Assembly (NCBI GenBank): GCA_039804165.1
Contig: JBDRZZ010000007.1
Location: forward strand, 1 to 64,000
Length of the DNA: 64,000 nt
Reading direction: 5' to 3'
DNA from: a candidate division WOR-3 bacterium
GTDB lineage: Bacteria; Hydrothermota; UBA3072
How positions within the stretch are numbered: position 1 is the first letter of the stretch; the number at the start of each line of letters is the position of its first letter. Shown one piece after another: positions 45,286 through 64,000 of this stretch. The position numbers were made by a program, and so were the translations under genes. The notes beneath the pieces were generated by a model. The model saw only the letters and a list, made by a program, of their open reading frames with translations, was not told the origin of the DNA and did no database searches.

Positions 45286-45387
45286 AAAATAAATTGATTT
45301 AAGGAACTACCTAAGTTTTCAACCCAAAAGAAACTCTTGACTCTTAAAAAAACACTACTACTTTTATAAAAGAAAAGGAGGTTTTTT

Positions 45388-46853: not shown

Positions 46854-46866
46854 TTTTTCAAAACCC

Positions 46867-46895
46867 TTGAAAAATAAAATATAAAAGGTTATAAT
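46867..46895 (+). promoter_or_regulatory. Promoter of ruvX/mltG, leaderless geometry
   Basis: TTGAAA (46867-46872), 17-nt spacer, perfect TATAAT (46890-46895). The ATG at 46902 starts 6 nt after the -10 box. Confidence 0.65.
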
Positions 46896-46901
46896 TTAAT
46901 A

Positions 46902-47297
46902 ATGAAATATTGGATTGGTTTAGATATAGGAACAAAATGGACTGGAATAGCAATAAGTAACGAGCTTGTAAAGATAGCAAGCCCAAAAAAGACTGTTAAA
47001 ACTGAACACTTAATAAAAGAACTTAAAGAAATGAATAAAGAATACGATTTTAAAGGAATAATACTTGGATTTCCGTTAACCACAACTGGCAAAATAGGAC
47101 AAAGAGCAAAAATTGTCCAAGAAATGAAGAAAAAGATACAGAAAGAATTGAATATCCCTGTAAAACTTCAAGACGAGCGCTTTACGACAAAAGAAGCCAC
47201 AAAGATTGCTTCTCAATTGGGAAAAACAAAAGACAAAAGATTCATAGATAAAATTTCAGCCTCCTTGATTCTTAAAGAATTTCTTGATGAGAATTAA
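46902..47297 (+). CDS. ruvX: Putative pre-16S rRNA nuclease / Holliday junction resolvase YqgF
   Basis: 131 residues, RNase H fold. GLDIGTKWTGIAIS carries the first acidic residue, GIILGFPLTTTGKIGQRA replaces the usual GLP-x-NM-x-G, and LQDERFTTKEAT and DKISASLILKEFL complete the family. It processes 16S rRNA ends. The next gene, mltG, overlaps it; ruvX-mltG neighbours are common in bacteria. Confidence 0.93.
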   Translation: MKYWIGLDIGTKWTGIAISNELVKIASPKKTVKTEHLIKELKEMNKEYDFKGIILGFPLTTTGKIGQRAKIVQEMKKKIQKELNIPVKLQDERFTTKEATKIASQLGKTKDKRFIDKISASLILKEFLDEN

Positions 47298-48276
47298 GTG
47301 TTTTCTTCTAATTTTTTTAATTGGATCAATTCTATTTCCAATAATTTTCTCTCCTAAGAAAAGAGATATTATAATAAAAATTAGAGAGGGGGATAACTTA
47401 GAAGTTATTTCCAAAAATTTAAAAGATAGTAAAATAATCCAAGACAGAATCGGTTTTAATTTTTTAGTTATTCTCACGAAGAAATCCCGTTCATTATCCT
47501 ATGGTTGGTATAAATTTAAAATCTATGAGAACCCAAGAAATGTTATTAGAAGTCTCCTTGAGAGGAGGAGACTCACTGTAAAAATTACAATCCCTGAAGG
47601 ATTAAAAGCAAGTGAAATTATAAATATTTTCTGGCAACATAGAGAAGAACTGGATATAGATGTTAGAAGAATAGACTCCCTTATAAGGGATAAGAACTTC
47701 ATTAAAGAACTCGGGATAGAAGCGAAAACTCTTGAAGGTTATCTTTTCCCAAACACTTATTTTTTTTATAAAGGGGAAAGAGCAGAAAATGTGATAAAAA
47801 AAATGGTTTTTACTCTCTTCTCAATTATCCCAAAAGGAGAATATTTTGAGGTGGAAAAGATGAAATTTAATCTCCATGAGATTTTAACAATAGCTTCTAT
47901 GATTGAAAAAGAAGCAATGGTAGATAGAGAAAAGCCAATAATTGCCTCAGTAATATACAATAGACTAAAAAAACAGTTACCTTTGCAAATAGATGCTACA
48001 GTGATTTATGCGTTAGGAAGGCATAAAAATAGAGTTTTATATAAAGACCTTAAGATAGAATCTTCTTATAACACCTATCAGAATAAAGGACTCCCCCCTG
48101 GGCCAATTGCCAATCCAGGCCAAAAATCAATAATAGCTGCTCTTTATCCTGCAAAAACAGATTATTTATATTATGTAGCTACAGGTAAAGGAACCCATAT
48201 ATTTACTCGGACATATAAAGAACATCTACAAGTGAAAAAAGAGCTTCAAGAGAGAAAAGAGAAACCGAAATCTTGA
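47287..48276 (+). CDS. mltG: Endolytic peptidoglycan transglycosylase MltG (YceG)
   Basis: 329 residues. An N-terminal membrane anchor (about 3-19) is followed by a LysM-like part (REGDNLEVISKNLKDSKII) and the YceG catalytic domain with ASMIEKEAMVDREKPIIASV (catalytic Glu within IEKEA), YNRLKKQLPLQIDATVIYAL and SSYNTYQNKGLPPGPIANPG. It cuts nascent glycan strands and sets their length. I take the ATG at 47287; a TTG directly before it (47284) is an alternative. Confidence 0.95.
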   Translation: MRIKCFLLIFLIGSILFPIIFSPKKRDIIIKIREGDNLEVISKNLKDSKIIQDRIGFNFLVILTKKSRSLSYGWYKFKIYENPRNVIRSLLERRRLTVKITIPEGLKASEIINIFWQHREELDIDVRRIDSLIRDKNFIKELGIEAKTLEGYLFPNTYFFYKGERAENVIKKMVFTLFSIIPKGEYFEVEKMKFNLHEILTIASMIEKEAMVDREKPIIASVIYNRLKKQLPLQIDATVIYALGRHKNRVLYKDLKIESSYNTYQNKGLPPGPIANPGQKSIIAALYPAKTDYLYYVATGKGTHIFTRTYKEHLQVKKELQERKEKPKS

Positions 48277-48300
48277 TTTTCTATTTTTTTGAGTTATAAA
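48273..48300 (+). promoter_or_regulatory. Promoter of the O-antigen ligase-like gene, leaderless geometry
   Basis: TTGATT (48273-48278, overlapping the mltG stop), 16-nt spacer, TATAAA (48295-48300). The GTG at 48308 starts 7 nt after the -10 box. Confidence 0.5.
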
Positions 48301-48307
48301 TATAATC

Positions 48308-49468
48308 GTGAAAAAACATTCTTTTCAAAATGCAGCTTTTTATTTTCTACTCACAGGGATTTTCTTTTCCCCTATTTCTGCTTATTTTTCAATTCCTTTA
48401 TTTCTTATCTCCTTTATTTTATTATTATTTTGTAAAAAGAAGTTCAAAATTAATCTCTTAGACAAACTACAGCTTTTTCTTCTTCTCGCCATTATAATTT
48501 CTTCTTTGTTTGGAGTTTATAAAAAACATAGCTTTTATGCGGGTTCTGCTTTTCTTTCTTATATTTTAGCTTATTTTCTTGGGAAAGAATTAATAAAGGA
48601 AGAAGAACAAATAAAGAAATTTCTAAACGTGGTAGCTTTGTTAATTACTTTTGTATCCGCAATTGGAATAATTCAGTATATAACAAAAGCCTCTTTTGTA
48701 TATAAGGGAATCCCAATAATAACCCCTATGAAAGAGGAAAGGATAACCTCAGTTTGTCATAATCCCTTAATTTTGGCCTCTCTTATTTTATTTTGTTTAC
48801 CAATTTTGGCCTCTTTTGCTATTGAAGAGAAAAGATTTACATTTTACTGGCTTGCAATAATTCTTGGAACAGTAGCTTTTTTCTTGACTTTCTCAAGGGG
48901 GCCTACAATAGCTTTAATTATTTCTTTATTAATCTTATTTTTTATAAAAAGAAAAAGAGTTTTAGCTCTGGCGGTTTTTACTATCTTAATTGGAGTAACA
49001 TTTTTAACTCCTCATTTAAGATGGAGATTCTTAAACACCTTTAAAGATAAAAATGACACAAATAGAATAATAGGAATAAAGATTGGACTCAAAATGTGGG
49101 AAGAACATTCAATATACACTGGAGTAGGCATTCACAATTATTATCTTTTATGCCCAAAGTACTCTCCCTCTCATAAAATAGGTTCTCCTTATGTTCACAA
49201 TATGTATATAAATTTTATGGTAGAAGCGGGGATTATAGGCTTATTTGCTCTTTTATTATTATTTGGAGGAGCCCTCAAAGGTAGTTATGAAAACTTAAAT
49301 AGAAAACATACTCACAAAAAGTGGATCTCGGAAGCTTTATTTTCTTCTTTTTGGGGAATTCTCATTCACAATTTCATTGACAACACTATTTATGTGGTAG
49401 GGCTTGGTCTTCTTTTCTGGATAGGAATGGGAATAATAAGTGGTATTCAAAATAAAAATTTGATTTAA
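48308..49468 (+). CDS. O-antigen ligase/polymerase (WaaL/Wzy family)
   Basis: 386 residues from a GTG start, about eleven membrane helices. The family signature region is present: LTFSRGPTIALII (Wzy_C core), a large periplasmic loop with GIKIGLKMWEEHSIYTGVGI and SPYVHNMYINFMVEAGIIGL. It joins or polymerises lipid-linked glycans at the outer face of the inner membrane. Context: priming transferase at 44629 and UDP-xylose synthase at 52899. Confidence 0.87.
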   Translation: MKKHSFQNAAFYFLLTGIFFSPISAYFSIPLFLISFILLLFCKKKFKINLLDKLQLFLLLAIIISSLFGVYKKHSFYAGSAFLSYILAYFLGKELIKEEEQIKKFLNVVALLITFVSAIGIIQYITKASFVYKGIPIITPMKEERITSVCHNPLILASLILFCLPILASFAIEEKRFTFYWLAIILGTVAFFLTFSRGPTIALIISLLILFFIKRKRVLALAVFTILIGVTFLTPHLRWRFLNTFKDKNDTNRIIGIKIGLKMWEEHSIYTGVGIHNYYLLCPKYSPSHKIGSPYVHNMYINFMVEAGIIGLFALLLLFGGALKGSYENLNRKHTHKKWISEALFSSFWGILIHNFIDNTIYVVGLGLLFWIGMGIISGIQNKNLI

Positions 49469-49485
49469 TAAAAAGGAGAAAAATA

Positions 49486-50895
49486 ATGAGTGGAATTGTT
49501 GGAATTGTTTCAAAAAAAGACTGTAAAGAAGAACTTCTTTATGCAACTGACTATCATTCACATCTTGGGACTTCTTATGGTGGCCTTGCAATTTTTGATG
49601 GAAATAAAATGCATAAAAAAATCCACACAATAGAGAAGGCACAATTCAAAACAAGATTTGTTGAGGATCTTGACTATATACATATGCACGGACATTCAGG
49701 AATTGGAGTAATAAGCGATAGAGATTCACAACCTCTAATTCTAAGATTAAAATTTGGCGAGTATTCAATCTGTGGAGCAGGTTTTATAAATAACCAAACT
49801 GAGCTCGCTGCTGAATTAGTTAAAGAGGGAGAAATTTTTTCTGAAATGTCTAATGGTTATGTAAATCAAATAGAACTCATTGCAAAACTTATTAATAGAG
49901 GGAAAGACTTATTAGATGGTATAGAATATATGTACTCTCGGATTGAAGGTTCAATGTCTTTACTTCTTCTTGGAAAAGAAGGTCTAATAGCTGCGAGAGA
50001 TAAGTATGGTAGGACCCCTCTTGTCTTAGGAGAAAAAAAAGGAGCAAAAATTATCGTTTCAGAAACTTCCTCTTATAAAAATTTAGGATATTCTACAAAG
50101 AAATTTCTTGGACCTGGAGAAGTAATGCTTTTAAATGAAGACAAAAAAGAAGTATTAAAAGAACCTGGTAAAGACTTAAGATTATGCACTTTTTTATATG
50201 TGTATACAGGATTCCCAGCCTCAGAATATGAAGGAAAGAACGTAGAGGAATTTAGAGAGTATTCTGGAAGGCTTATGGCGAAAAAAGACAATGTTAAAGC
50301 TGATCTTGTCACTGGAGTTGCAGATTCAGGAACGGCATACGCCTATGGATATTCTTCTCAGTCAGGAATTCCAGTTAAAGCTCCTTTACTTAAATATACC
50401 CCAGGGTGGGCAAGAAGTTATGTTCCAATAAGCCAGGAAACAAGAAACTTAATTGCTTTAATGAAACAGATAACCGCAGACGCTCTCATCAAAGGACAGA
50501 GACTTATAATAACAGAGGATTCTATTGTTAGAGGAACTCAACTAAAAAATTATCTTTTGGTTAAACTCTGGAATGCAGGTGCAAAAGAGATACACGTCCG
50601 ACCTGCCTGTCCTCCACTTATGTTTCCTTGCAAATTTCTTTTCTCAACAAGGAAGATTGAAGAATTATTTGCAAGAAGGATCATTAAAAAAATTCATAAA
50701 AAGCCTCTCTATAATATAGAACCTTATCTTGACCCTAATTCAAAAGAATATCTTAGGATGATAAAGGAGATGGAAAAAGACCTTAATGTAACTTCTTTAA
50801 AATATCAAGAACTTGAAGATTTGATAAAAGCAACTTGTCTTCCAAAAGAAAACTTATGCACATATTGCTGGAACGGAAAGGAAAAGTTAGATTAG
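49486..50895 (+). CDS. PurF-like phosphoribosyltransferase with degenerate glutaminase domain
   Basis: 469 residues. The overall layout is that of amidophosphoribosyltransferase: an N-terminal Ntn domain (about 1-230), then a type I PRTase with VADSGTAYAYGYS and ITEDSIVRGTQLKNY (the PRPP loop). Four Cys match the iron-sulfur ligands of B. subtilis-type PurF (RLCTF, FPCKF, LCTYCWNGK). However the nucleophile Cys next to the initiator Met is Ser2 (MSGIVGIV), the glutamine-binding GH-x-RY-x-T is GHSGIGV, and the His-Asn-Gly-Asn loop is GAGFINNQ. It should thus not hydrolyse glutamine itself. It is a paralog or an ammonia-using enzyme. The start is fixed by AAAAGGAG. Confidence 0.82.
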   Translation: MSGIVGIVSKKDCKEELLYATDYHSHLGTSYGGLAIFDGNKMHKKIHTIEKAQFKTRFVEDLDYIHMHGHSGIGVISDRDSQPLILRLKFGEYSICGAGFINNQTELAAELVKEGEIFSEMSNGYVNQIELIAKLINRGKDLLDGIEYMYSRIEGSMSLLLLGKEGLIAARDKYGRTPLVLGEKKGAKIIVSETSSYKNLGYSTKKFLGPGEVMLLNEDKKEVLKEPGKDLRLCTFLYVYTGFPASEYEGKNVEEFREYSGRLMAKKDNVKADLVTGVADSGTAYAYGYSSQSGIPVKAPLLKYTPGWARSYVPISQETRNLIALMKQITADALIKGQRLIITEDSIVRGTQLKNYLLVKLWNAGAKEIHVRPACPPLMFPCKFLFSTRKIEELFARRIIKKIHKKPLYNIEPYLDPNSKEYLRMIKEMEKDLNVTSLKYQELEDLIKATCLPKENLCTYCWNGKEKLD

Positions 50896-50905
50896 GAGGA
50901 AAAGA

Positions 50906-52840
50906 ATGAAAAAGTTTTTTAGCTTTTATTTTATATTCTTTCTTTCTATAACAATTTATGGAGAGATAAAATTGCCAAAGCTTATAAGTGATGGGATGGT
51001 CTTACAAAGAGATATAGAATTAAAAATTTGGGGTTGGGCTAAAAAGGGGGAGAAAATTTCTATTGTTTTTCTGGATTCTATTTACAATACCACTACTAAT
51101 GATTCAGGAAAATGGGAAATTTCTTTACCAAAGCTAATAGCTGGAGGCCCACATGAAATGAAAATAACGGATTCTAAAGACACTCTCTTTATAAAAGATA
51201 TTCTAATCGGTGATGTTTGGGTAGCTTCCGGACAATCTAATATGGAATTACCAATGCGAAGAGTTTCCCACATATATAAATCTGAAATCGCATCCTCAGA
51301 AAACAGTTTTATAAGATTCTTTAAGGTTCCAGAAAAATATAACTTTAATAAGCCTGAGGAAGATTTAAAAGGAGGGAAATGGACAAAAACAAATCCAGAA
51401 ACTGTTCTTGAGTTTTCAAGCGTGGCTTATTTTTTCAGTAGAGAGCTTTATGAAAAATACAAAATCCCAATTGGTATAATAAATGCGAGTCTAGGAGGTT
51501 CTCCAGCTGAAGCTTGGATGAGCGAAGACGCTTTAAAAGACCAATTCCCACATTATTACGAAGAGGCTTTGCGATTTAAGGATAGCTCTCTCATAAACAA
51601 GATAAAAAAAGAAGATAGAGAAAGAATTCAAAATTGGTATAAAGAACTAAGAGAAAAAGATATGGGGTATAAAGAATCTGAAAAATGGTATAACCCAAAA
51701 TTTGAGGCATCTAAATGGCCTGAGATAAAAATCCCAGGTTACTGGGCTAATCAATTAGGTCCTGTAAATGGAGTTTTATGGTTCCGCCGAGAAGTAAACA
51801 TACCAAAATTTATGGCAGGGCAACCAGCTGAACTTATCTTAGGCAGAATTATAGATGCTGACTCCACATTTGTAAATGGAGTTTTTGTAGGAAATACTAC
51901 TTATCAATATCCTCCAAGAAGATATAAACTTCCAGAGGGGTTATTAAAAGAAGGGAAAAATATAATTGTAATAAGAGTTATAAGTGAAAGAGGAATAGGA
52001 GGTTTTGTCCCAGACAAACCTTATGAGATCTCTTATAATAACAAAAAAATTGACTTGAAAGGAAAATGGAAATATCAACTTGGTGCAAAGATGGAGCCTC
52101 TTTTGCCAGAAACTTTCATAAGCTGGAAGCCAGTTGGTCTATTTAACGGAATGATTGCCCCTCTTCTCAAATATCGTATTAAAGGAGTAATATGGTATCA
52201 AGGAGAATCCAATACAGATAGACCAATTGAGTATAGAGAGCTATTCCCAGCTCTTATAAAAAACTGGAGAGAAAAATGGCAAGAGGGTGACTTCCCATTT
52301 CTTTTTGTCCAACTTTCTAATTTTATGGAAGCAAAGAAAGAACCTTCCGAAAGTAATTGGGCGCTTTTAAGAGAAGCACAACTTAAGGCTTTATCTTTAC
52401 CAAATACAGGAATGGCTGTAACAATTGACATTGGAGAATGGAATGACATCCATCCTCTAAATAAAAAAGATGTGGGCAAGCGTCTTTCCCTTCTTGCTCA
52501 AAAAATAGCTTATGGTGAAGAGAATGTTGTTTCATCAGGGCCTATTTACAAATCAATGGAGATAAAAGATAATAAGATAATTCTGAGCTTTAAGGAAGTT
52601 GGTAGTGGTCTTATGGCAAAAGGGAATAAAGAACTTAAACATTTTGCCATAGCGGGGCACAATAAAAAATTTGTATGGGCAAAAGCGAAAATTGAGAAAG
52701 ATAAAGTGATTGTTTGGAATAAAAATGTGAAAAATCCTATTGCTGTTAGATACGCTTGGGCAGATAATCCAGAGGAAGCGAATCTATACAATAAAGAAGG
52801 GCTCCCAGCTTCTCCTTTTAGAACCGATGATTGGGAATAA
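50906..52840 (+). CDS. Sialate O-acetylesterase (SASA family)
   Basis: 644 residues. A signal peptide (about 1-19) leads to ISDGMVLQRDIELKIWGWAKKG and the SGNH-hydrolase nucleophile block VWVASGQSNMELP. A galactose-binding-like jelly roll insert follows (about 255-380), then KGVIWYQGESNTDRP and the catalytic His in WNDIHPLNKKDVGKRLS. It should remove O-acetyl groups from sialic acid or other acetylated glycans in the periplasm or outside. AGGAGG precedes the ATG 10 nt after the PurF-like gene, so they share a transcript, perhaps by chance. Confidence 0.9.
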   Translation: MKKFFSFYFIFFLSITIYGEIKLPKLISDGMVLQRDIELKIWGWAKKGEKISIVFLDSIYNTTTNDSGKWEISLPKLIAGGPHEMKITDSKDTLFIKDILIGDVWVASGQSNMELPMRRVSHIYKSEIASSENSFIRFFKVPEKYNFNKPEEDLKGGKWTKTNPETVLEFSSVAYFFSRELYEKYKIPIGIINASLGGSPAEAWMSEDALKDQFPHYYEEALRFKDSSLINKIKKEDRERIQNWYKELREKDMGYKESEKWYNPKFEASKWPEIKIPGYWANQLGPVNGVLWFRREVNIPKFMAGQPAELILGRIIDADSTFVNGVFVGNTTYQYPPRRYKLPEGLLKEGKNIIVIRVISERGIGGFVPDKPYEISYNNKKIDLKGKWKYQLGAKMEPLLPETFISWKPVGLFNGMIAPLLKYRIKGVIWYQGESNTDRPIEYRELFPALIKNWREKWQEGDFPFLFVQLSNFMEAKKEPSESNWALLREAQLKALSLPNTGMAVTIDIGEWNDIHPLNKKDVGKRLSLLAQKIAYGEENVVSSGPIYKSMEIKDNKIILSFKEVGSGLMAKGNKELKHFAIAGHNKKFVWAKAKIEKDKVIVWNKNVKNPIAVRYAWADNPEEANLYNKEGLPASPFRTDDWE

Positions 52841-52860
52841 TATTAAAAATTAAATACTAC

Positions 52861-52888
52861 TTGACACATTTCTATCCCAAGATAGAAT
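52861..52888 (+). promoter_or_regulatory. Promoter of the UDP-xylose synthase gene, near-leaderless
   Basis: TTGACA (52861-52866), 16-nt spacer, TAGAAT (52883-52888). The ATG at 52899 starts 10 nt after the -10 box; no ribosome site. Confidence 0.6.
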
Positions 52889-52898
52889 TGAAGAAAAA

Positions 52899-53867
52899 AT
52901 GAAAGAAAAAGTCAAAGATGAAAACTCAAAAAGGGTCTTAATAACAGGTGGAGCAGGCTTTTTAGGATCCCATCTTTGTGAAAGATTGTTAAAGGAAGGT
53001 TATTATGTTATATGTATGGATAACTTAATAACAGGAAGGATAAAAAATATACAACATCTTTTTAAAAACAAAAATTTTACTTTTATAAATCACGATGTAA
53101 CAAGCTATGTAAATATAGAAGGAGAATTAAATTACATCCTTCATTTTGCAAGTCCTGCAAGTCCAAAAGACTACCTTAAATATCCAATTCATACCTTAAA
53201 AGTCGGAGCCCTTGGAACCTATAACTTACTTGGCTTAGCAAAGGCTAAAAAAGCAAGTTTTCTTTTAGCTTCTTCTTCAGAAGTATATGGAGATCCAGAA
53301 CTCTCCCCTCAAACTGAGGAATATTGGGGAAATGTAAACCCAGTAGGGCCAAGAAGTGTTTATGATGAAGCGAAAAGGTATGCTGAGGCAATCACAACAG
53401 CTTACCACAATGTCCATAAAATAGATATAAAAATAGCGAGAATTTTTAATACTTATGGTCCAAGGATGCGCATTGAGGATGGAAGAGTTTTGCCAACTTT
53501 TATATGCCAGGCTTTAAGAAATGAGCCAATAACAGTTTTTGGAGATGGATCTCAAACTCGCTCCTTCTGTTATGTAGATGACTTAATTGAGGGGATTTAC
53601 AGATTGATGCTTTCTAATGTAAATACTCCAATCAATTTAGGGAATCCAAGCGAAATAAGTATTCTTGACTTCGCAAAAGAAATCTTAAGCCTCACCAAAA
53701 GCAAAAGCAAAATTATTTTTAAGCCTTTGCCTATTAACGATCCAAAAAAGAGAAGGCCTGACATAAGTAAAGCTAAAAAATTTCTAAATTGGGAGCCAAA
53801 GATAAAAAGAGAAGAAGGGCTTAAGAAAGTTCTCCCTTATTTTAAAGAAGAACTTGGCTTAGAATAA
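52899..53867 (+). CDS. UDP-glucuronate decarboxylase (UDP-xylose synthase)
   Basis: 322-residue extended [66 protein letters not shown], the active-site Tyr-Lys in YDEAKRYAE, and [11 protein letters not shown] with [19 protein letters not shown] are all UXS signatures. It converts UDP-glucuronate to UDP-xylose for surface glycan. It is followed directly by a strong terminator. Confidence 0.92.
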
Positions 53868-53925: not shown

Positions 53926-56900
53926 TTATTTCATTAAGATCAGCTTTCTTACAGCAGTAAAGTTGCTTGCTTCCATCTTACAGAAGTAAACACCATTTTT
54001 CAAGTTACCCACATTCCAATCAACAGTGTATCTTCCAGGTTTCTTAACCTCGTTAACCAGAGAAGCAATTTCTCTACCGAGTAAATCACAAATTACAATT
54101 CTTACAGAGCTTTCGTGTGGGACATCATAAGTTATTACCGCTTTCGTATTCACAAGAGAACCATTTTCTCTTAAAGCAAAGACTTTGGGTAAAGCTTCCT
54201 CTAGTACACCCTGAGCCAGGGTCTTAAAGCTCCAAACACTTGACCATTCCCCCTCACCCAGAGAATTAAATGCAAGAACGCGCCAATAGTATTGCGTATT
54301 TTCTGTAAGGCCACTAATAGCTTCGACGGTATCGTAAGAGGTCGCATCTACTATAATAGAAGGATCTTCAAATGTCTCTGTAGTCGCAACCTGACAACGG
54401 TATCCTGTAGCAGTGAGAACTTTATTCCATATCAAATTTAAAGAAAGTGGTTGATTCTCTGCACCATTTGGAGGTGAAACAAGAGTGGGTGCTGGAGGAA
54501 CTTCCGCAGCATTATTCAAATAATGATACTGATTAATAGCCAAATCACCAATTACTTGGGTAACCCCATTTGGCCAATAAACTGTGACAGTTGCAGAGGT
54601 ATTTTCTCCAAGACCAAAATTAGCCCAAATATTTCCACCTGTCATTCCTCCACAACCACCTGCTTGAATGTCTCTAATCATAGAGAGAGATCCAGCTTCA
54701 ACTTTAATCCGAGCTCCAATGGCTGACTTATTATACGTCCCAATCATCGCAAGACGGAACCCAATCCAGTTCCCAGGGTCAACTAGGTCATTTCTCAATA
54801 AATGCCTATTGGCTTGATAGTTCGTGTATATATCAAGCTTACCATCATTATTGTAATCAACAAACAAAACCGAACGACGATGCTGACCTATAGAACCAAC
54901 AGCCTCACTTGATACATCACTAAATGTCCCATCACCATTATTAGAATAAACCTTAAAATCAGCGCCCGCTGTTCCAGCTACCAAATCCAGATCTCCATCA
55001 TTGTCAAAGTCACCCCAGGAAAATCCACGATAAGCAGCATTCTGAGCTATACCCAAACCGGTTGCTGCTGTTAATGTGTCAAATACCAATGTTCCACCTT
55101 CAATTAGATTCTTCAATAAATACAACCTTCCACCATCAGCACCAAGACCTTGAGCAAGTAAATCATAATCTCCATCATTGTCAAAATCACCCCAGGCAGA
55201 AGCAATCGCAGAAACATTTAATTCATTACCTTCTACAATTATCGGCTGAGCCTGACCAAACTTACCACCATTGTTTATGTATATCGCACTCTTATTCGTA
55301 GGCCAATCACTACGAATTGAAGGAGCCCACAAATCAAGATCTCCATCATTATCCACATCTAAAAATGCCATATTCCAGCTCTCAAATTTCCTACCATCTG
55401 TCGTATCAAGGTCAGCAGTTGCATCACCTGAAGCCAATTCAAAACTCCTTGGGCTCACTTGCTTATAAAGACCTATAATTGTCCCTCCACCAGAACCCGT
55501 AGTATTCCCAGCAGCAGCTATATCAAGAAGCCCATCCTGATTGTAATCACCAACCGCAGGATTACCAAGGTTCCCAGAACCAATCGGACCCAAGATAGTT
55601 GAATCAAGGGTCGCATTCTCTAAATTTCCATAATAAACGATAATCCTATTCCCAGACTGAACAACAAGGTCAAGATTCCCATCGTTATCCACATCTGCAA
55701 ATGCACTACCCTGCTTATAACCAACTCCAATATTCTTAATAAGGGTAAAACTCTCACCCTCATTCCTCATTAAAGAACCCTTTCCACTTGCTCCAGGAAT
55801 ATATAAATCTAAATCCCAATCGTCATCATAATCTCCCCAAGAGAATCCTAAATCAGGATTCGCTGTCGGAGCTGGTAAGATGGTTGTTACATCGGTGTAT
55901 ATAGTTCTAATTCTAAATGTCCAAGCTCCTGAGAATTCACTTTCTTCTTCGTCCTCAATATATGAGCTTACATGCCAATAGAGTCTTTCTCCATAGGACA
56001 AACTTGTTAAAATATAGCTTGTCTCAGAAAGATATTCATCCACAATCAACTCTGAGAAATTAGCATCTCTTGCCACTTGAAGATGATAACCATCTACATC
56101 TGGGAGCTCTTGCCACTCTAAGGTCACATCCCCTGGGTCTAAAACAGCGTTATTTTCTGGGGATAGGAGTGCTGGAGGTGCAAGAGGTGATTCTAAATAA
56201 TGATACTGATTAATAGCCAAATCACCAATTACTTGGGTAACCCCATTTGGCCAATAAACTGTGACAGTTGCAGAGGTATTTTCTCCAAGACCAAAATTAG
56301 CCCAAATATTTCCACCTGTCATTCCTCCACAACCACCTGCTTGAATGTCTCTAATCATAGAGAGAGATCCAGCTTCAACTTTAATCCGAGCTCCAATGGC
56401 TGACTTATTATACGTCCCAATCATCGCAAGACGGAACCCAATCCAGTTATTTGTGTTTTCTACCTTATTCCTGAATAACCTGAAAGTAGAGCTTGTCCAG
56501 CCAGCAAATATATCAAGCTTACCATCATTATTATAGTCAATAAATAACGCAGAACGATGCTGCTGTATTCCAGTTCCTACTGTGCTCGCTGTAACATTGG
56601 TAAATGTAAGAGCGCTTGACTCTATTAATTGGTTCTGGTATATCGTCAAATCCATACCACCTCCACCAATTAATAAGTCCAAGTCTCCGTCATTGTCATA
56701 GTCTCCCAAAGATAAACCTCTCATCTGAACGTTCGCTACTATACCTGATGAGCCTGTAGCATCAGTAAATGTGCCATCTCCATTGTTCAACAATACATTC
56801 AAAGCACCACCGTCATCTGTAAACGCTTGTGCAATCAAATCCATATCTCCATCATTATCAATATCTCCCCAGGCAGAAGCAATTGCCGAAACATTTCTGG

Positions 56901-57657
56901 CTGAACCATCAACAATAATCTCACTCCAATTTAACGCACTACCATTATTGTTTATGTATAATCCAGACCTGTTTGTCGGGAAATTACTTCTGATCGATGG
57001 CATAAATAAATCCAGATACCCATCATTGTTGACATCAACCCAGGCAGGATTCCATGCCTCGAATTGATGAGTAATATCATCAAGCACTCCAGATGCTACA
57101 TCCTCGTATTGACCTGTTCCTGTATTCAACTTTGCCAATCGGACAGGTGTTTGGGTGTTTGCACCATAACCACCGGCAAAGGCTATCTCCAATCTTCCAT
57201 CCCGGTCAAAGTCCGCTGCCGCTGCCTCAGCAATATTACCACTGGGTATGGTAATCAGGTTCAAACCTACAGCAGATGTAATATCCGGAAACGATAAAGT
57301 ATCCCCTGTGTTTTCTACAAGAGATAAATAATTACCCTGCGTCATTAATAGGTCTAAATTACCATCTACAGTGAAGTCCGCCATCAGGGAACCATAGGTA
57401 GTTGCAGTCGAAGGATCCGGGTTCTTAGAAACAAGTGCAAATGTATCACCTATTCCCATGTTGATATACAATTTACCTGCTGAACTATGGAAGAAATCTA
57501 TCAGACCATCGTTGTTATAATCACCCCAAGAAAATCCTACATTGCCGTTACCCACTATTCCAGACTTCCCTGTTACATCCTCAAAAGAAAGCTGTGCAAA
57601 CATACTACTTGCAAACATAAGAAAACATAATATAACTAAAATTTTTATTTCTCGCAT
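53926..57657 (-). CDS. Secreted FG-GAP/ASPIC-UnbV repeat protein with Por sorting domain
   Basis: 1243 residues. A signal peptide (about 1-21) is followed by two large similar halves. Each is an FG-GAP/VCBS propeller with repeated WGDYNNDG or WGDFDNDGDxDL units, closed by an ASPIC/UnbV domain (about 404-487 and 963-1046). A fibronectin type III-like domain follows each half (about 495-585 and 1055-1150). The C-terminal type IX sorting domain (about 1160-1243) has CDLLGREIASLVNEVKKPG and NGVYFCKMEA. The two ASPIC domains are identical at the DNA level. Strong AAAAGGAGGTC before the ATG and a long 5' leader with a small ORF and hairpin. Likely a surface adhesin or ligand-binding protein. Confidence 0.88.
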   Translation of the reverse strand: MREIKILVILCFLMFASSMFAQLSFEDVTGKSGIVGNGNVGFSWGDYNNDGLIDFFHSSAGKLYINMGIGDTFALVSKNPDPSTATTYGSLMADFTVDGNLDLLMTQGNYLSLVENTGDTLSFPDITSAVGLNLITIPSGNIAEAAAADFDRDGRLEIAFAGGYGANTQTPVRLAKLNTGTGQYEDVASGVLDDITHQFEAWNPAWVDVNNDGYLDLFMPSIRSNFPTNRSGLYINNNGSALNWSEIIVDGSARNVSAIASAWGDIDNDGDMDLIAQAFTDDGGALNVLLNNGDGTFTDATGSSGIVANVQMRGLSLGDYDNDGDLDLLIGGGGMDLTIYQNQLIESSALTFTNVTASTVGTGIQQHRSALFIDYNNDGKLDIFAGWTSSTFRLFRNKVENTNNWIGFRLAMIGTYNKSAIGARIKVEAGSLSMIRDIQAGGCGGMTGGNIWANFGLGENTSATVTVYWPNGVTQVIGDLAINQYHYLESPLAPPALLSPENNAVLDPGDVTLEWQELPDVDGYHLQVARDANFSELIVDEYLSETSYILTSLSYGERLYWHVSSYIEDEEESEFSGAWTFRIRTIYTDVTTILPAPTANPDLGFSWGDYDDDWDLDLYIPGASGKGSLMRNEGESFTLIKNIGVGYKQGSAFADVDNDGNLDLVVQSGNRIIVYYGNLENATLDSTILGPIGSGNLGNPAVGDYNQDGLLDIAAAGNTTGSGGGTIIGLYKQVSPRSFELASGDATADLDTTDGRKFESWNMAFLDVDNDGDLDLWAPSIRSDWPTNKSAIYINNGGKFGQAQPIIVEGNELNVSAIASAWGDFDNDGDYDLLAQGLGADGGRLYLLKNLIEGGTLVFDTLTAATGLGIAQNAAYRGFSWGDFDNDGDLDLVAGTAGADFKVYSNNGDGTFSDVSSEAVGSIGQHRRSVLFVDYNNDGKLDIYTNYQANRHLLRNDLVDPGNWIGFRLAMIGTYNKSAIGARIKVEAGSLSMIRDIQAGGCGGMTGGNIWANFGLGENTSATVTVYWPNGVTQVIGDLAINQYHYLNNAAEVPPAPTLVSPPNGAENQPLSLNLIWNKVLTATGYRCQVATTETFEDPSIIVDATSYDTVEAISGLTENTQYYWRVLAFNSLGEGEWSSVWSFKTLAQGVLEEALPKVFALRENGSLVNTKAVITYDVPHESSVRIVICDLLGREIASLVNEVKKPGRYTVDWNVGNLKNGVYFCKMEASNFTAVRKLILMK
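54518..54771. repeat. 254-bp direct repeat, copy 1
   Basis: Identical base for base to 56195-56448, 1677 bp away in the same orientation. It encodes the second ASPIC/UnbV domain of the FG-GAP protein. Flanking sequence diverges at once on both sides. Confidence 0.95.
56195..56448. repeat. 254-bp direct repeat, copy 2
   Basis: Identical to 54518-54771. It encodes the first ASPIC/UnbV domain. The surrounding FG-GAP repeats of the two halves are related but clearly diverged. Confidence 0.95.
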
Positions 57658-58049: not shown

Positions 58050-59159
58050 CTATTTAAAAATCACAAGAGTCCTAACAGTTTTGAAATAGTCCGTTTGTAT
58101 TCTAAGTAAATAAACCCCTGAAGGAACATCTTTTGGAAACCACTGAATTTTGTGCCCCCCAGCTTTTAAATTTGCATCAAGGATTGTATCCACTAGTTCC
58201 CCTACGAGATTAAACACCTTAATAATAATTTTTGTTGAGATTGGTAGATAAAATTCAATAGTGGCTTTCTCTTTAACAAGAGTTGGATAGATATAAAGAT
58301 ATTTTTCTTTAAATTCCTCTTCAATTCCTTCTTCTCGGAGTAACTTTAGAGTCCCGAAGCCATCAGCGTTCATCCAGTGACTATTAGAATCCTCATGGGC
58401 AACCCAAACAGAACCGAAGAAATTATCTCTTACTTTTGGATTTTCATTAGGATCATCATTTTCACAGTATGCGAGAGAGAGTCCTATAATTTTACCCTCT
58501 GTTAAATTTACCCTGAACGCTTCAGGATTACTACTCTGGTAATTGTCATTATAAACTTTAAGAGAAAATTCCCAAGTGTAAGTAGAACCATTTTTTCTCA
58601 TTGCAAGGTTAGGGAAATGACTTGCATAGTCTACAACTTGCCAAAATCCTGCAAGATCGTATGCGGCAAATTCTTCCGTCACTCCGCCATCTTCTGGAGC
58701 ATTCAGAGTAATATGATAGGAAAATGCATTTTCAGCATTTTCTCCATCCTGGTCAATACGATGCATCCCTCCTGATTTATCTTCGTCTATAAAAACTTCT
58801 AAAACATCATAATTGTAATAACCTCCACCACCTGTATAGCCATCCACAAAGATATCGTCGGTAATCTCAACCAAAAAGTATAAAACATTTTCTAAGGAAG
58901 ACCATACTACTTTGTATCTACCGGAGTAATCCTCCGGTTCTACATAGCCACCATAAGGAATCCATACCTGATCTATTGACTGCCAATTTACCAAACTCCA
59001 ACAAGGATCATCTCCTAAACCATTAATTGTTGGAGGATTTTCTACATCTGGAGCCTTTACTGTGTCATCTTGCGGCCTCAAGGTAAAAGCTCTAAGAAAA
59101 AAAGAAGAACCAAAAAGAAAGAAAAAAAAGAAAAATTTGGAATTTTTCATAAGAACCAT
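58050..59159 (-). CDS. Secreted CBM9-like protein with Por sorting domain
   Basis: 369 residues. A long hydrophobic signal with a Phe run (about 5-25) is followed by a carbohydrate-binding family 9-like domain (about 35-275; PTINGLGDDPCWS, YKVVWSSLENVLYFLVEITD, VLEVFIDEDKSGG, WMNADGFGTLKLL). The C-terminal sorting domain (about 290-369) has VFNLVGELVDTILDA and SGVYLLRIQTDYF. It likely binds a sugar polymer outside the cell. GGGAGG lies 4 nt before the first ATG; Met4 is a possible alternative start. A TTGACA at 59206-59201 may be its -35 box, but no good -10 follows. Confidence 0.83.
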   Translation of the reverse strand: MVLMKNSKFFFFFFLFGSSFFLRAFTLRPQDDTVKAPDVENPPTINGLGDDPCWSLVNWQSIDQVWIPYGGYVEPEDYSGRYKVVWSSLENVLYFLVEITDDIFVDGYTGGGGYYNYDVLEVFIDEDKSGGMHRIDQDGENAENAFSYHITLNAPEDGGVTEEFAAYDLAGFWQVVDYASHFPNLAMRKNGSTYTWEFSLKVYNDNYQSSNPEAFRVNLTEGKIIGLSLAYCENDDPNENPKVRDNFFGSVWVAHEDSNSHWMNADGFGTLKLLREEGIEEEFKEKYLYIYPTLVKEKATIEFYLPISTKIIIKVFNLVGELVDTILDANLKAGGHKIQWFPKDVPSGVYLLRIQTDYFKTVRTLVIFK

Positions 59160-59297
59160 TTAACCTCCCTTTTCAATTAAAATGGTATTATTTTAAAATT
59201 TGTCAAGCTTTTGTTAGGCCAATTGGTTCTTATAAATTTCTTGACAGATCTTGACAGATTACTTTTATTTTGCATTTTATTTATATTTATATAATGT

Positions 59298-59984
59298 ATG
59301 TTTAGAATATTTTTATTTTTAGTTTCTTTAACTGCAGAGGAATTACTCAAGAAAATTGACGAGATAAAGACACCTCTTAAGTCTCAAGCAACAGTAGAAA
59401 TGCGTAACTATTTACGAGGTGGGCGAGAAGTAACCTACAAAATAAAAATTATCTCGGAAAGAAAAAAAGCGAGTTATCTTGAAGTCCTTGAGCCAATTAG
59501 AGAAAAAGGAAGAAAATTTCTTCTAATTGGAAATGACATTTGGATGTATGCTCCAGAAGTTGGGAAATCTTTAAGGCTTTCTATAAGAGACAGATTTCTT
59601 GGAAGTGAGTTTTCAAATAGTGATCTAATGGAAAGCAGTTACGAAAAGAATTTTAAAGCAACTTCTATTGATTCTACCTTGGATTTTTACTTTCTCGAAC
59701 TCGAAGGGAAAAGTAAAGAAGCTCCTTATAAAAAAATCACAATGAAAGTTAGAAAGAAAAACTATCTCCCTGCTGAATTAAAATTTTATACTCTCTCAGG
59801 TAGATTATATAAGGAAATGTTCTTAGATAGCCTCAAAGTTTTTGAAGGACAACTTTACACCACTTATATGAAGATGATTAATGTGCTAAACCCTGAAAGT
59901 TACACAGAGGTAAAAATTATATCCCTTAAAACCCTTCAGAGTATTTCGCCTTCTCTTTTCAAACCTGAAAACTTAAAGAAATGA
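59298..59984 (+). CDS. Outer-membrane lipoprotein-sorting protein (LolA superfamily)
   Basis: 228 residues. A short hydrophobic start (about 1-11) is followed by AEELLKKIDEIKTPLKSQAT, a strand EVTYKIKIISERKKASYLEV, then GRKFLLIGNDIWMYAPEVGKSLRLS, and DRFLGSEFSNSDLM. This is the pattern of the uncharacterised outer membrane lipoprotein-sorting family, distinct from classic LolA and usually found with LolCDE/MacB-like or MMPL exporters. It begins an operon with an outer-membrane protein and an ABC transporter, so lipoprotein or lipid export is likely. Its promoter is unclear; a tandem TTGACAGAT repeat lies at 59241-59260. Confidence 0.82.
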   Translation: MFRIFLFLVSLTAEELLKKIDEIKTPLKSQATVEMRNYLRGGREVTYKIKIISERKKASYLEVLEPIREKGRKFLLIGNDIWMYAPEVGKSLRLSIRDRFLGSEFSNSDLMESSYEKNFKATSIDSTLDFYFLELEGKSKEAPYKKITMKVRKKNYLPAELKFYTLSGRLYKEMFLDSLKVFEGQLYTTYMKMINVLNPESYTEVKIISLKTLQSISPSLFKPENLKK

Positions 59985-60958
59985 TTTTTGTTTTGTTTTC
60001 CTTTTTAAAGGCTTCTTTTGGGAATGAAATAATTTATAGCGAAAAAGATATTTTTTATCATTTTGAGAATAGAATTCATTTTGAAGGAAAAAAAGAATTT
60101 TCTTCTTTTGTTTTTTTCTCAAGAAGTGGAATTCTTTATCCTCTTGACACGATTTACATTTCAATAGATAAAGCAATAGCAAGCTTAAATTATAAAAACT
60201 TTGAGGTTTCCTTTGGAAGAGATAATCTCTTCTGGGGATATGGAATGTTTTATTCTCCTTTCTGGTATGGAAGTTCTTCCATTTCACCCTTCGATGAAGA
60301 ACTTTTAAAAGAGGGGAAAAATATTTTCTCTCTCCAATACAACAACATCCCAAATATAACTCCAGAATTTATCATTTTCTTACCAGGAGACCCCCCTAAA
60401 ATTGACAGCATTAAAGGAGGAATGCATTTTTCTTTCTTTAGCTCTGGATTAGAGGCTCACTTCCCAATTGTTTTTAGTAAAAAAGCTTTTTATCCAGGGG
60501 CGGGAATACGTTTTTCTATTTTAGGATTTATAATCTTTTCAGATTTCTCTTTTGAGTTTTCTTCTAAGGAAACTTTTGCTTCTACAACTGGTTTTAATAA
60601 AATCTTTGGAGATAATTTCTGTTTTCACTTTGAGTTTTTTTACAACCAGAAAGGTCTTACAAAAGAAGAATATGATGCTACCCCAAAAGAAGATTTACCC
60701 AAGCTTCTTGAACCTGGAGGCTCTGGAAGGAAATATATATATTCTGTGATTAGATGGACAGATGAAATAAATGGAATTGGATTATTTTCTTTAGTTAATC
60801 CAGAATGGAAAAGTGGAATCCTTGGAATTTTTCTAACCTCTTATTTTTTTGAGAATTCTCTTATTTCCTTAAATTATGTTAGAATCTTGAAAGGAAGAGA
60901 GTTTGATTTCATCCCTTATAAAAACATCTTTTCTATTGAATTAAGATATTATATTTAA
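59981..60958 (+). CDS. Predicted outer-membrane beta-barrel protein
   Basis: 325 residues, no named family recognised. A short signal-like start (about 1-14) is followed by alternating aromatic strands (FEVSFGRDNLFWGYGMFYSP, GIRFSILGFIIFSDFSFEFS, ISLNYVRILKGREFDFIP), and the chain ends in an aromatic strand (FSIELRYYI), as barrel proteins do. The ATGA overlap with the LolA-like gene and the ABC genes 13 nt downstream tie it to the same export system. It may be the outer-membrane acceptor or channel, which is inference. Confidence 0.6.
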   Translation: MIFVLFSFLKASFGNEIIYSEKDIFYHFENRIHFEGKKEFSSFVFFSRSGILYPLDTIYISIDKAIASLNYKNFEVSFGRDNLFWGYGMFYSPFWYGSSSISPFDEELLKEGKNIFSLQYNNIPNITPEFIIFLPGDPPKIDSIKGGMHFSFFSSGLEAHFPIVFSKKAFYPGAGIRFSILGFIIFSDFSFEFSSKETFASTTGFNKIFGDNFCFHFEFFYNQKGLTKEEYDATPKEDLPKLLEPGGSGRKYIYSVIRWTDEINGIGLFSLVNPEWKSGILGIFLTSYFFENSLISLNYVRILKGREFDFIPYKNIFSIELRYYI

Positions 60959-60971
60959 AGGAGAGTAGAAT

Positions 60972-61661
60972 ATGCTAATTCAAATGGAAAATGTAAAAAA
61001 AGATTATTTTCTGGGGAAAACAGAGGTTCACGCCATTAGAGGAGTCTCTTTTTCTATTTCTAAGGGCGAATTCATTGTTATTGCTGGCCCTTCAGGGAGT
61101 GGGAAAACAACTTTATTAAATTTAATGGGGCTTCTTGATAAACCAACTTTTGGGAAAATAATTTTTGAAGGAAAAGATCTCACAAGCATTTCGGAGGAGG
61201 AAGCTACCTTTATAAGAAAGAATCGCATCGGTTTCATATTTCAAAATTTTAATCTTATACCAGTTCTTACCGCTTATGAAAATATAGAACTTCCACTTAT
61301 ATTAAAGGGAGAGAAAGACAGAAAGAAAAGAATAGAAAAAATATTGTCAGAAACAGGAATAAGCGAAATAGCCTCTCACAAACCAGATGAACTCTCTGGA
61401 GGAGAAAGGCAAAGAGTTGCTATAGCGAGAGCTTTAGTTGGAAATCCTGATATTGTTCTTGCAGACGAACCTACTGCAAATCTTGATTCTGAGACTGGAT
61501 TACAAATAATCAAAATAATGGAAAATTTAAACAAAATTGAAGGAGTAACATTTATCTTCTCTACACACGACACAAGGCTATTTAAACTCGCAGATAGAAA
61601 AATAGAACTTAGAGATGGAAGGATTGTAAAAGATGTTATTCAAAGGAGCCATAAGAAATAG
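60972..61661 (+). CDS. ABC transporter ATPase, LolD/MacB type
   Basis: 229 residues. Walker A GPSGSGKTTLLNL, Q-loop IFQNFNLIPVLTAYENIELP (the LolD/MacB/FtsE signature), ABC signature LSGGERQRVAIARAL, Walker B DIVLADEPTANLD and the switch His in FSTHD. It powers lipoprotein release or export with the two FtsX-type permeases that follow. AAAGGAGAG precedes the ATG, and its 3' end overlaps the first permease by 29 nt. Confidence 0.95.
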   Translation: MLIQMENVKKDYFLGKTEVHAIRGVSFSISKGEFIVIAGPSGSGKTTLLNLMGLLDKPTFGKIIFEGKDLTSISEEEATFIRKNRIGFIFQNFNLIPVLTAYENIELPLILKGEKDRKKRIEKILSETGISEIASHKPDELSGGERQRVAIARALVGNPDIVLADEPTANLDSETGLQIIKIMENLNKIEGVTFIFSTHDTRLFKLADRKIELRDGRIVKDVIQRSHKK

Positions 61662-62775
61662 CTTAAAATACTTAAGAAGAAGCATTGTTATAGCTATCTG
61701 TATTGCGGTCTCAACAATTGCCATGCAAACAATGAGTGGAATAGGAGAAGGATTTAAAATTTCTGCTCTACGTTTTATGCTATCTCGGGAAGGAATGATT
61801 GTTTTTGAGCCAAAAGACGCTGAACCTCTTGAAGTTGCAATTTATTCTATAGAAAAATATGGAGATATAAAGAAAAAAATAAAAGAGATAATACCGAACG
61901 CAGAAATCAGAGGAAAAATATTCGCTCCAGCGATAGTTGTAAAAGACAGCTCCTCAATTGAAACTTCTATTATCTCGGAAGACGAAATTCCAAGAACAAT
62001 TATAGGGGAAAAGACAGCAGAAATTCTCAACGCAAAGAAAGGAGATACCATAATTCTTTTCGGAAGTAATAGATATGGAGGGTTAAGCGTTCTCCCAGCA
62101 AAAATTGATAGCACAGCTAAGAATTTTAAAAGTATAAAAAATGGTAAAGGAATTATTCTTCCAATTTCTCTTATGAGAATGCTTTTAGGTTGGGAAAAAG
62201 ACGAGGTTAGACTTCTTGTGATAAATTTTTACGAGTTTTGGAAGGCAGACGAATATGTAAAAGAGTTAAGGAAAATCTTTCCCAATATAAAAATCACCTC
62301 TTGGAGGGAACGTCTAACAAACATTGAGGATCTTTTTAGAGTAACAGATTACAAGATGAATATTTTCTCATTAATAATTTTGATTCTTGTTGCCGGGATT
62401 ATAATGAATACGGTTCTCACTAGTGTTCTTGAAAGAAAGAAAGACATAGGAACTCTTCGTGCTATAGGAGCTTCCCGGTTTTGGATTACTAAATTAATTC
62501 TTCTTGAAATAATTCTCATTTCCTTAATTGGAGCATTAATCGGAACAATTTTTTCCTATATCATTATTAAATTTGGATTAGGAAGAGGTATTAGTTTTGG
62601 AGAAATAGAAGAAATGATGGATTATTGGGAAGGTAAGATTTATCCTGCAATTGTCCCTCTCCAGTGGGTAGGTTACATTGTTTTTGGGGTTATCTGGGCT
62701 ATTATTTGGTCTCTTTATCCTCTTTTATATATTGTTAGAATGAAACCTATTGAAGCTTTGAAAAAAGAATTATGA
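61633..62775 (+). CDS. FtsX-type ABC permease, first subunit
   Basis: 380 residues with the MacB/LolC layout: one N-terminal membrane helix (about 17-36), a periplasmic MacB-PCD domain (to about 245), then three helices (about 248-270, 295-325, 340-365). FtsX motifs are VLERKKDIGTLRAIGASRFW and PIEALKKEL at the end. It begins inside the ATPase gene and overlaps the next permease by ATGA, so the two probably form a heterodimer. Confidence 0.9.
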   Translation: MLFKGAIRNSLKYLRRSIVIAICIAVSTIAMQTMSGIGEGFKISALRFMLSREGMIVFEPKDAEPLEVAIYSIEKYGDIKKKIKEIIPNAEIRGKIFAPAIVVKDSSSIETSIISEDEIPRTIIGEKTAEILNAKKGDTIILFGSNRYGGLSVLPAKIDSTAKNFKSIKNGKGIILPISLMRMLLGWEKDEVRLLVINFYEFWKADEYVKELRKIFPNIKITSWRERLTNIEDLFRVTDYKMNIFSLIILILVAGIIMNTVLTSVLERKKDIGTLRAIGASRFWITKLILLEIILISLIGALIGTIFSYIIIKFGLGRGISFGEIEEMMDYWEGKIYPAIVPLQWVGYIVFGVIWAIIWSLYPLLYIVRMKPIEALKKEL

Positions 62776-64000
62776 ATATATTTAAAATGGGGTTCCGAAA
62801 CACAAGCAGAAATAAAAGAAGATCAATAATAAATTCCTTTACTATTGGAGCTGCAGTTATGGTCATTATTCTATTCGATACTCTAATAGAAGGAGAATGG
62901 AATGATGTTATTGATAATTATATAAAAATGGGTGTAGGGCATATTAAGATTCATAAAAAAGGTTATGATAAGAACTCTGAAAGATTCCCAGTGACTAAGA
63001 GCCTCCTCCTTTATGATTCTAAAGATATAGAAAAGAAAATAAGAGAAATTTCTGGAATTAAAGAAATTTATCCAAGACTAAAAATAGGTGGATTAATTTC
63101 ATACGAAGGGAAGCAGATTCCTATTCTTATTAACGGAGTAAACTTACCTAAAGAAAGAAAGTTCAGTGCAATAAGAGATAAAAATGTTGAAGGGTCAATC
63201 CCTGAGAATGAAGAATATAAAATCTTAATTGGAAAGGAGCTCTCTTCTATTTTAAATAGTAAAGTAGGGGATATTCTTCTCCTTTATAGTAGAACAACTT
63301 ATGAAACTCATAATGTGATAGATCTTGAAATTTCTGGAATATATTCTATTGGTTTTTCAGAGTTTGAAAAAATGAATGCTTTTGTTCCTCTTCAGATTAT
63401 CCAAGATTTTATAGGGGCAAAAGCGATTTCCGAACTTACGATAATTCTTGAAGATCCATCCAAGGCAGAAATTTTTGTAGATTCTCTTAAAAATAAACTC
63501 TTTTCTTTTGATGTAGAAATTTTCCCATATTCTCATTATATAGAAGAAGTTATAAGTGTTCAAGCGATTCAAAAAAAAGCAATGGGTGTTATAAAAGGGA
63601 TTCTTTTAATTCTTGCTATTTTTGGAATTTCAAATATGATGATGGTTTCTGCTTGGGAGAGGAAAACAGAAATTGGAACATTAAGAGCAATTGGTTTTGG
63701 GAAGTGTCAAATATCCACTCTTTTTTTAAGCGAAGGATTTTGGATTGGATTTTTTGGAAGTCTCTTCGGTTGCTTCTTAGGATTTGTGGGCTCCATTTTA
63801 CTCCAAAACTTTGGAATTCCACTCCCATCCGGAGCTCTTGAAGGACTTAATATTCCAATAGGAACAAAAATGTATGGGAAAATAATACCTCTCTCCTTTC
63901 TCAAAGCGTTCTTTTTGGGAACTCTTACAACAATGATTGCTTCTTTACCTTCAGCGTTAAGAGCTTCTAATTTACCTATAATTAAAACCTTAAGAGAATA
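62772..64000 (+). CDS. FtsX-type ABC permease, second subunit (runs to window edge)
   Basis: 409 codons are open from the ATG at 62772 to the edge, and the last two bases are TA, so the stop is probably split by the window end. It has the same layout as the first permease: KMGFRNTSRNKRRSIINSFT at the membrane entry, a periplasmic domain (about 45-275), three C-terminal helices and the motif SAWERKTEIGTLRAIGFGKC. The end RASNLPIIKTLRE fits a natural FtsX C-terminus. The extracytoplasmic region of LolC/LolE-type permeases binds lipoproteins. Confidence 0.9.
   Translation, partial: MNIFKMGFRNTSRNKRRSIINSFTIGAAVMVIILFDTLIEGEWNDVIDNYIKMGVGHIKIHKKGYDKNSERFPVTKSLLLYDSKDIEKKIREISGIKEIYPRLKIGGLISYEGKQIPILINGVNLPKERKFSAIRDKNVEGSIPENEEYKILIGKELSSILNSKVGDILLLYSRTTYETHNVIDLEISGIYSIGFSEFEKMNAFVPLQIIQDFIGAKAISELTIILEDPSKAEIFVDSLKNKLFSFDVEIFPYSHYIEEVISVQAIQKKAMGVIKGILLILAIFGISNMMMVSAWERKTEIGTLRAIGFGKCQISTLFLSEGFWIGFFGSLFGCFLGFVGSILLQNFGIPLPSGALEGLNIPIGTKMYGKIIPLSFLKAFFLGTLTTMIASLPSALRASNLPIIKTLRE

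Follow-up and report, generated by a model that had tools for sequence, protein, structure and literature searches.

We describe a five-gene operon on the plus strand, at 59298-64004, at the right end of a 64,000-nucleotide stretch of DNA (hereafter, the window) of contig JBDRZZ010000007.1 from a bacterium that belongs to WOR-3/Stahlbacteria. In order, the operon encodes a LolA-fold periplasmic carrier, an outer-membrane beta-barrel, a LolD/MacB-type ATP-binding cassette (ABC) ATPase and two FtsX-type permeases, A and B. We suggest that it is probably a complete, dedicated ABC-powered export line for a hydrophobic molecule, which would pass by way of the periplasmic carrier to the operon's own barrel, and that this molecule would more probably be a lipid than a lipoprotein. 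The gene set, the protein families, the barrel fold (in a model of modest quality) and the tight genetic link between the genes are computed results.

A carrier, a barrel and an ABC pump in one operon

The sequence-only reading that preceded this analysis had claimed five overlapping or tightly spaced genes of these types, and all five are present on the plus strand. Their junctions are, in order, a 4 bp overlap, a 13 bp gap, a 29 bp overlap and a 4 bp overlap, and the permease B gene runs 4 bp past the window end. The carrier (59298-59984, 228 amino acids) is a member of PF17131 (LolA_like), scoring 124.8 bits against a cut-off of 30 with residues 57-228 aligned to positions 3-184 of the 184 in the model, while its score against LolA itself (PF03548) is 13.7 bits, below the cut-off of 23.6. 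Its profile matches the solved structure 3BUU at 1.1e-29, with further matches to 9TP6, 3BK5 and 4Z48. The protein starts with a short signal peptide that lacks a lipobox cysteine. As a separate observation, the signal peptides of carriers and barrels in this lineage (59298-59330, 59981-60020 and the orthologues) are shorter than usual and have hardly any basic residue at their start, for example MILLLLSLTPEALL in a related locus (L044).

The barrel (59981-60958, 325 amino acids) was tried as a known Pfam family and rejected, because all matches are sub-threshold (Wzi, 13.9 of 30.1 bits), and its sequence has no match in the PDB. An AlphaFold2 model made from four sequences has 18 strands with a predicted local distance difference test (pLDDT) score of 64, and Foldseek places it with porins, OccD and AlgE at E values of ~1e-9 to 1e-8. 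The protein ends in RYYI and carries the motif G-R-x4-W-G-Y-G-x3-S-P at residues 79-93. An iterated profile seeded with this barrel and run over 862 open reading frames (ORFs) took in 63, every one in a carrier locus. In a control with reversed decoys, 0 of the 862 reversed ORFs and 60 real ones entered the profile, and with other seeds, 8 of 24 other outer-membrane-protein-like ORFs, no barrel-family member was recruited. The superfamily gathered in this way shares the signature G-[KR]-[QD]-x-[IL]-x-W-G, followed by N-P and an acidic residue (S-P in the window barrel). In the model, segment 81-114, which is of low confidence and holds most of the signature, may fold inward. Compared directly with DUF1302 (PF06980), the window barrel is not listed at E≤1; it is tied to that family only via the iterated profile, two of whose members (in L048 and L052) pass the DUF1302 cut-off. 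A DUF1302 search of the host genome was empty, but it was equally empty in 14 of 14 control genomes and missed L052, which scores 23.8 bits with hmmscan. By these sequence relationships, we take the window barrel to be a divergent member of a carrier-partner superfamily that includes DUF1302.

The pump components belong to the LolCDE/MacB (FtsX) ABC superfamily, as judged from FtsX domains and a complete set of ATPase motifs. In the ATPase (60972-61661, 229 amino acids; PF00005, 2.8e-36), Walker A (GPSGSGKT), the signature (LSGGERQ) and Walker B (VLADEP) are intact. Permease A (61633-62775, 380 amino acids) and the FtsX/MacB_PCD-type permease B (62772-64004, 410 amino acids) both contain PF02687 (7e-16 and 1.3e-17). 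Among solved structures, permease B is nearest to LolF (9W37, 8.6e-23) and LolE (7ARH, 4e-21), and the best match of permease A is also LolF, albeit weaker (7.8e-13). None of these proteins qualifies as canonical Lol: the ATPase scores 232.4 bits against LolD (TIGR02211; cut-off, 307.75), the permeases 57.5 and 114 bits against LolC/E (TIGR02212; cut-off, 362.45), and the carrier, as noted, is under the LolA cut-off. At the position that we take to be that of the LolC/LolF hook that recruits LolA, the loop is 6 residues shorter in both permeases than in the LolF-like protein of the host, and permease B has an invariant YSRTxxxTHNVIDLE stretch there. A shortened loop at the presumed hook position, together with this stretch, is as expected of a separate carrier-pump pair.

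The host has three Omp85 matches and is therefore diderm; at 27055-29907 on the minus strand, a 950-amino-acid protein with a weak match (24.9 bits; cut-off, 24) may be a third Omp85-type protein. On contig C1, a LolF-like permease (337.9 bits against TIGR02212, just under the cut-off) adjoins LolD. The gene at 2580, which the sequence-only reading had called LolA-like, does exist directly after ftsK, but its match to PF03548 is sub-threshold (14.8 bits; cut-off, 23.6) and its family differs from that of the 59298 carrier. We presume from the ftsK-lolA linkage that it is the housekeeping LolA. Because the LolF-LolD pair and the LolA-like gene are separate from the operon, it is well supported that the host has a housekeeping Lol set and that the operon is a second system, in agreement with the second, dedicated route proposed earlier. 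The host also has a second carrier module on contig C9, consisting of TetR, a resistance-nodulation-division (RND) pump of the HAE3 type, a carrier and a DUF1302 barrel, and on contig C6 a set that reads as a TolC-like protein, an adaptor-like protein, an FtsX permease and an ATPase. Beside a weak, solitary LolA-like gene on host contig C48 (L125, 62-3382), the start of a protein beginning MNRGIRMIKKSTIILIFLVFPI occurs three times in tandem in nearly identical form.

The similarities of permease B to LolF/LolE and of the ATPase to LolD, and a carrier family named for lipoprotein sorting, would also fit a second Lol route for one or a few lipoproteins, in which the barrel replaces LolB as acceptor or surface-display pore. 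We consider this unlikely. Every Lol equivalog cut-off is missed, the loop at the presumed hook site is shorter in both permeases, no lipoprotein gene lies in or directly after the operon or is common to the close loci, and the neighbourhoods of relatives suggest lipid-like products (see below).

Conservation of the carrier-barrel pair and exchange of the pump

Conservation of the operon, and of the wider set of carriers, was surveyed in 60 WOR-3 relatives. The relatives that alignment of the carrier brought up are assigned to candidate division TA06, Candidatus Stahlbacteria, candidate division WOR-3 and one unclassified bacterium. The same five-gene order is kept at 45-64% identity in G002, G003 and G004 so that, with the host, four genomes share it, which represent four genera of the family. 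A chance gene cluster was rejected on the strength of the order kept in these three relatives. No further gene beyond the operon is common to the close loci. In a fifth genome, G006, the carrier, ATPase and permease genes lie together behind a TetR gene (L044) on contig C162, which ends inside permease B, with no barrel between them. G006 was considered as a barrel-less counter-example and rejected, since a divergent homologue of the window barrel lies alone on contig C189 (L151, 1801-2757), unlinked from the carrier-ABC genes. The operon was found neither in G001, which is of the same genus as the host, nor in G005, and the window-type barrel occurs in 5 of 147 genomes of the phylum, host and G006 among them.

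Carriers were present at 71 places in 43 of the 60 genomes; all neighbourhoods were taken, together with that of the weak carrier on host contig C48. The ORF caller recovered 70 carrier loci and missed two (L081 and L112) that were found by reading stop to stop, giving a total of 72. Of the 70, 35 combine an RND pump with a barrel, 25 an ABC pump with a barrel and 4 an ABC pump without a barrel; 2 have a barrel without a pump in the cluster and 4 have neither. Altogether, a barrel of the one superfamily lies beside the carrier in 62 of the 72 loci, which supports the earlier proposal of a dedicated outer-membrane acceptor for the carrier. Among the ten loci without one, L044, L076, L078 and L112 are truncated at the ends of their contigs, L058 has a different outer-membrane-protein-like gene, L100, L118 and L125 are isolated carriers, and L053 and L081 are complete ABC-carrier sets. 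Neither L081 nor L112 has a barrel of the superfamily. Homologous loci in which the barrel is absent and the carrier partners elsewhere, which the sequence-only reading had named as contrary to its proposal, are thus rare, being L053 and L081, with the barrel of G006 on another contig.

These exceptions are also what could be held to favour the idea that the carrier and ABC genes are the real unit and that the barrel is an unrelated porin lying between them by chance: the carrier-ABC genes of G006 have no barrel between them, and L053 and L081 lack such a barrel. Against this stand the barrels of one superfamily near 62 of the 72 surveyed carriers and at 18 of 18 loci from a plasmid collection (see below), and the divergent barrel homologue that persists elsewhere in G006; we regard a chance association as highly improbable.

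In a tree of 69 carriers (L105, in which the carrier is in two pieces, was left out), the ABC and RND classes need 3 changes each, compared to means of 22-23 after shuffling, although long branches were flagged, including the join of the window clade with its neighbouring clade. Such few changes of pump class mean that carrier lineages keep one pump class, whereas both classes share the barrel superfamily. Over 60 loci, the distances of carriers and barrels are correlated (rho 0.57; maximum of 500 permutations, 0.22) and within the RND class (34 loci; rho 0.78). Within the ABC class, carrier-barrel co-evolution was not borne out (24 loci; rho 0.11; permutation maximum 0.34).

Neighbouring genes and the likely cargo

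Sets of ABC pump, carrier and barrel also occur outside the phylum, in Pseudomonadota, Bdellovibrionota and Bacteroidota, and several are embedded in clusters of the fatty-acid/polyketide type. Two carrier searches of a plasmid collection returned 11 and 27 records, from which 18 loci were examined. A superfamily barrel ORF is present in 18 of 18, all 18 being recovered only after iteration; the unmodified barrel profile at E≤0.01 finds it in 14 (one weak, 3e-3). In L129 the barrel is on the opposite strand and in L138 it is in two pieces. The pumps are ABC in 16 loci and RND in two (L129 and L140). Ten of these 16 ABC loci and one locus on an Escherichia coli chromosome (L146) are annotated, giving 11 annotated ABC loci outside WOR-3.

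Ketosynthase genes lie beside the module in 6 of these 11 loci (L127, L131, L134, L135, L138 and L146), and most of the six also have genes for acyl carrier protein or malonyltransferase. Their hosts are E. coli pG8, Enterobacter, Rahnella, Klebsiella aerogenes, Aliiroseovarius and E. coli O169:H41; as four of the six look like one enterobacterial cluster type, the independent cases number about three. The Paraburkholderia locus (L128) has a phosphopantetheinyl transferase and no annotated ketosynthase within the stretch, Vibrio HDW18 and two Plesiomonas loci have a histidine kinase and a LytTR regulator in place of the ketosynthase, and the Bdellovibrio locus has neither. The chromosomal E. 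coli form is present in 375 of 5426 complete genomes (~7%) and the plasmid form in 2. In L146, on the chromosome of E. coli O169:H41, a fatty-acid-synthase-like cluster and the ABC-carrier-barrel module together span 4236-18046, with a two-partner secretion pair and ycdU/tRNA-Ser as neighbours. In gene content, this E. coli cluster may resemble the aryl-polyene and granadaene lipid-pigment clusters.

Several better-studied systems bear on the cargo. AmeABCD of Castellaniella defragrans combines an HAE3 RND pump with a DUF1329 protein of the LolA superfamily and a DUF1302 barrel, and deletion of AmeABCD lowers monoterpene tolerance (PMC6394551). ApeL-ApeM-ApeN of the E. coli aryl-polyene cluster (a LolA-like protein, an RND pump and a LolB-like DUF3261 protein) is proposed to transport aryl-polyene lipids to the outer membrane (PMC8253772), and LolA2/LolB2 of a flexirubin locus may serve flexirubin (PMC11885536). 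In Thalassolituus, TOL_3187, in which MMPL and LolA-like domains are joined, was 42-fold up on a long-chain alkane, and a predicted porin was expressed exclusively on it (PMC6304351). Because the ketosynthase clusters of relatives, AmeABCD and ApeL-ApeM-ApeN point to lipid-like products, a lipid-like cargo is favoured, and by analogy a lipid or lipophilic metabolite is more likely than a lipoprotein.

The same comparison raises the alternative of stress-type efflux of hydrophobic xenobiotics or membrane-damaging compounds, such as the monoterpenes handled by AmeABCD, and not placement of a self-made lipid. The RND-class sister modules share the carrier fold and the barrel superfamily with Ame (PMC6394551); a TetR gene lies just upstream of five related modules, which were chosen for a Pfam test on account of its TetR-like appearance, an arrangement that fits the favoured export line as well; and the operon is patchy, as the 5 of 147 genomes with its barrel type illustrate. 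However, the window operon has no regulator, and, among the ABC-class relatives from named bacteria, those with informative neighbours lie in biosynthetic clusters and not in degradation islands. We hold efflux to be a less probable alternative.

Around the operon itself, a 138-bp intergenic region (59160-59297), read directly from the sequence and expected to hold the operon promoter on the plus strand, separates the carrier gene from a divergent CBM9/sorting-tail gene (58050-59159). To the right, permease B is followed by 180 bp and an opposite-strand gene that converges on the operon; the operon therefore ends there, self-contained and without a cargo gene. Inspection past the window edge, where the sequence-only reading had thought a cargo lipoprotein might lie, revealed no lipoprotein gene within the operon or immediately behind it, and a lipoprotein as the likely cargo is not supported, given this and the lipid-like products to which the telling relatives point. 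The converging gene presumably encodes a LarA-type racemase and, beyond it, there are genes that we take to be LptF and LptG. Elsewhere, some 5 kb ahead of the operon, genes at 43593-53867 that encode sugar-transferase, epimerase, O-antigen-ligase-like and amidotransferase domains are consistent with a surface polysaccharide cluster, and 53926-57657 on the minus strand encodes a 1243-amino-acid protein with two similar halves (one long stretch occurs twice) and a secretion-tail-like segment at its end.

Several observations weigh against a dedicated lipid export line. First, L053 and L081 are related loci with complete ABC-carrier sets and no superfamily barrel. Second, the lack of a carrier-barrel correlation within the ABC class speaks against tight co-evolution there, or reflects saturated distances. 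Third, the operon is dispensable, because the same-genus genome G001 lacks it. Fourth, neither a biosynthetic gene nor a TetR gene accompanies the window operon, and the host has only one ketosynthase gene, on another contig, so the argument from the clusters of relatives cannot be extended to the cargo in the host. Finally, the barrel model is of modest confidence (pLDDT 64) and that of permease B is unusable (pLDDT 40).

The proposed export line and its relation to known systems

For the export line that we favour, we infer the direction of transport, the docking and the cargo by analogy with homologous systems that are better studied. Based on the fold classes, the ABC machine would act on the periplasmic side of the inner membrane, like LolCDE or MacB, and feed the carrier. 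The carrier may dock to the pump at the YSRTxxxTHNVIDLE stretch of permease B, and would take the cargo across the periplasm in a hydrophobic pocket. It would then dock to the cognate barrel, which would stand in for LolB and hand the cargo on, either into the outer membrane or across it.

Like AmeABCD, the operon encodes together a LolA-fold periplasmic protein, a barrel of the superfamily that includes DUF1302 and an inner-membrane pump. However, its pump is an ABC machine of an ATPase and two FtsX permeases and not an HAE3 RND protein, which in the host is found in the C9 module; its carrier is of PF17131 and not DUF1329; and it includes no AmeC-like protein. With ApeL-ApeM-ApeN and LolA2-LolB2 it would share a dedicated LolA-like carrier for one lipid-like cargo bound for the outer membrane, except that their acceptor is a LolB-like protein and that of the operon a barrel, and that ApeM is an RND pump. 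The ABC superfamily, the carrier fold and the supposed direction of flow are those of LolA-LolCDE/LolF-LolB; by contrast, the operon is below all Lol equivalog cut-offs, has two unlike permeases that seem to lack a full-length hook loop, and encodes, among its five genes, a barrel and no LolB-type lipoprotein. As in MacAB-TolC, an FtsX/MacB-type ABC pump is coupled to an outer-membrane protein, but the five genes include neither a MacA-type adaptor nor TolC, putative counterparts of which the host has in the set on C6. The best reading, by analogy, is that the operon would be the ABC counterpart of AmeABCD and the aryl-polyene transporters.

An ABC pump of the operon's kind is absent from the passages describing AmeABCD, TOL_3187, ApeL-ApeM-ApeN and LolA2/LolB2, and in the open-access literature searched we found no paper on an ABC pump combined with a LolA-like carrier and a barrel of this type. 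The operon thus appears as one member of a widespread ABC branch that we did not find described in that literature. More broadly, the evidence is evenly poised on whether there is a wide class of exporters in which a constant PF17131 carrier and a barrel of the DUF1302-including superfamily are fitted with either an ABC (FtsX) or an RND pump, and in which the ABC branch exports lipid-like compounds in many phyla with the barrel replacing LolB.

Little is known of the routes by which lipophilic molecules besides lipopolysaccharide, phospholipids and lipoproteins arrive at the outer membrane. If our suggestion is correct, a recurring carrier-barrel pair with interchangeable pumps would be one testable answer. 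Such a pair would also account for many genes that carry the annotation "outer membrane lipoprotein-sorting protein" but probably have no part in sorting lipoproteins. Because 375 of 5426 E. coli genomes have the ABC form, it is open to genetics.

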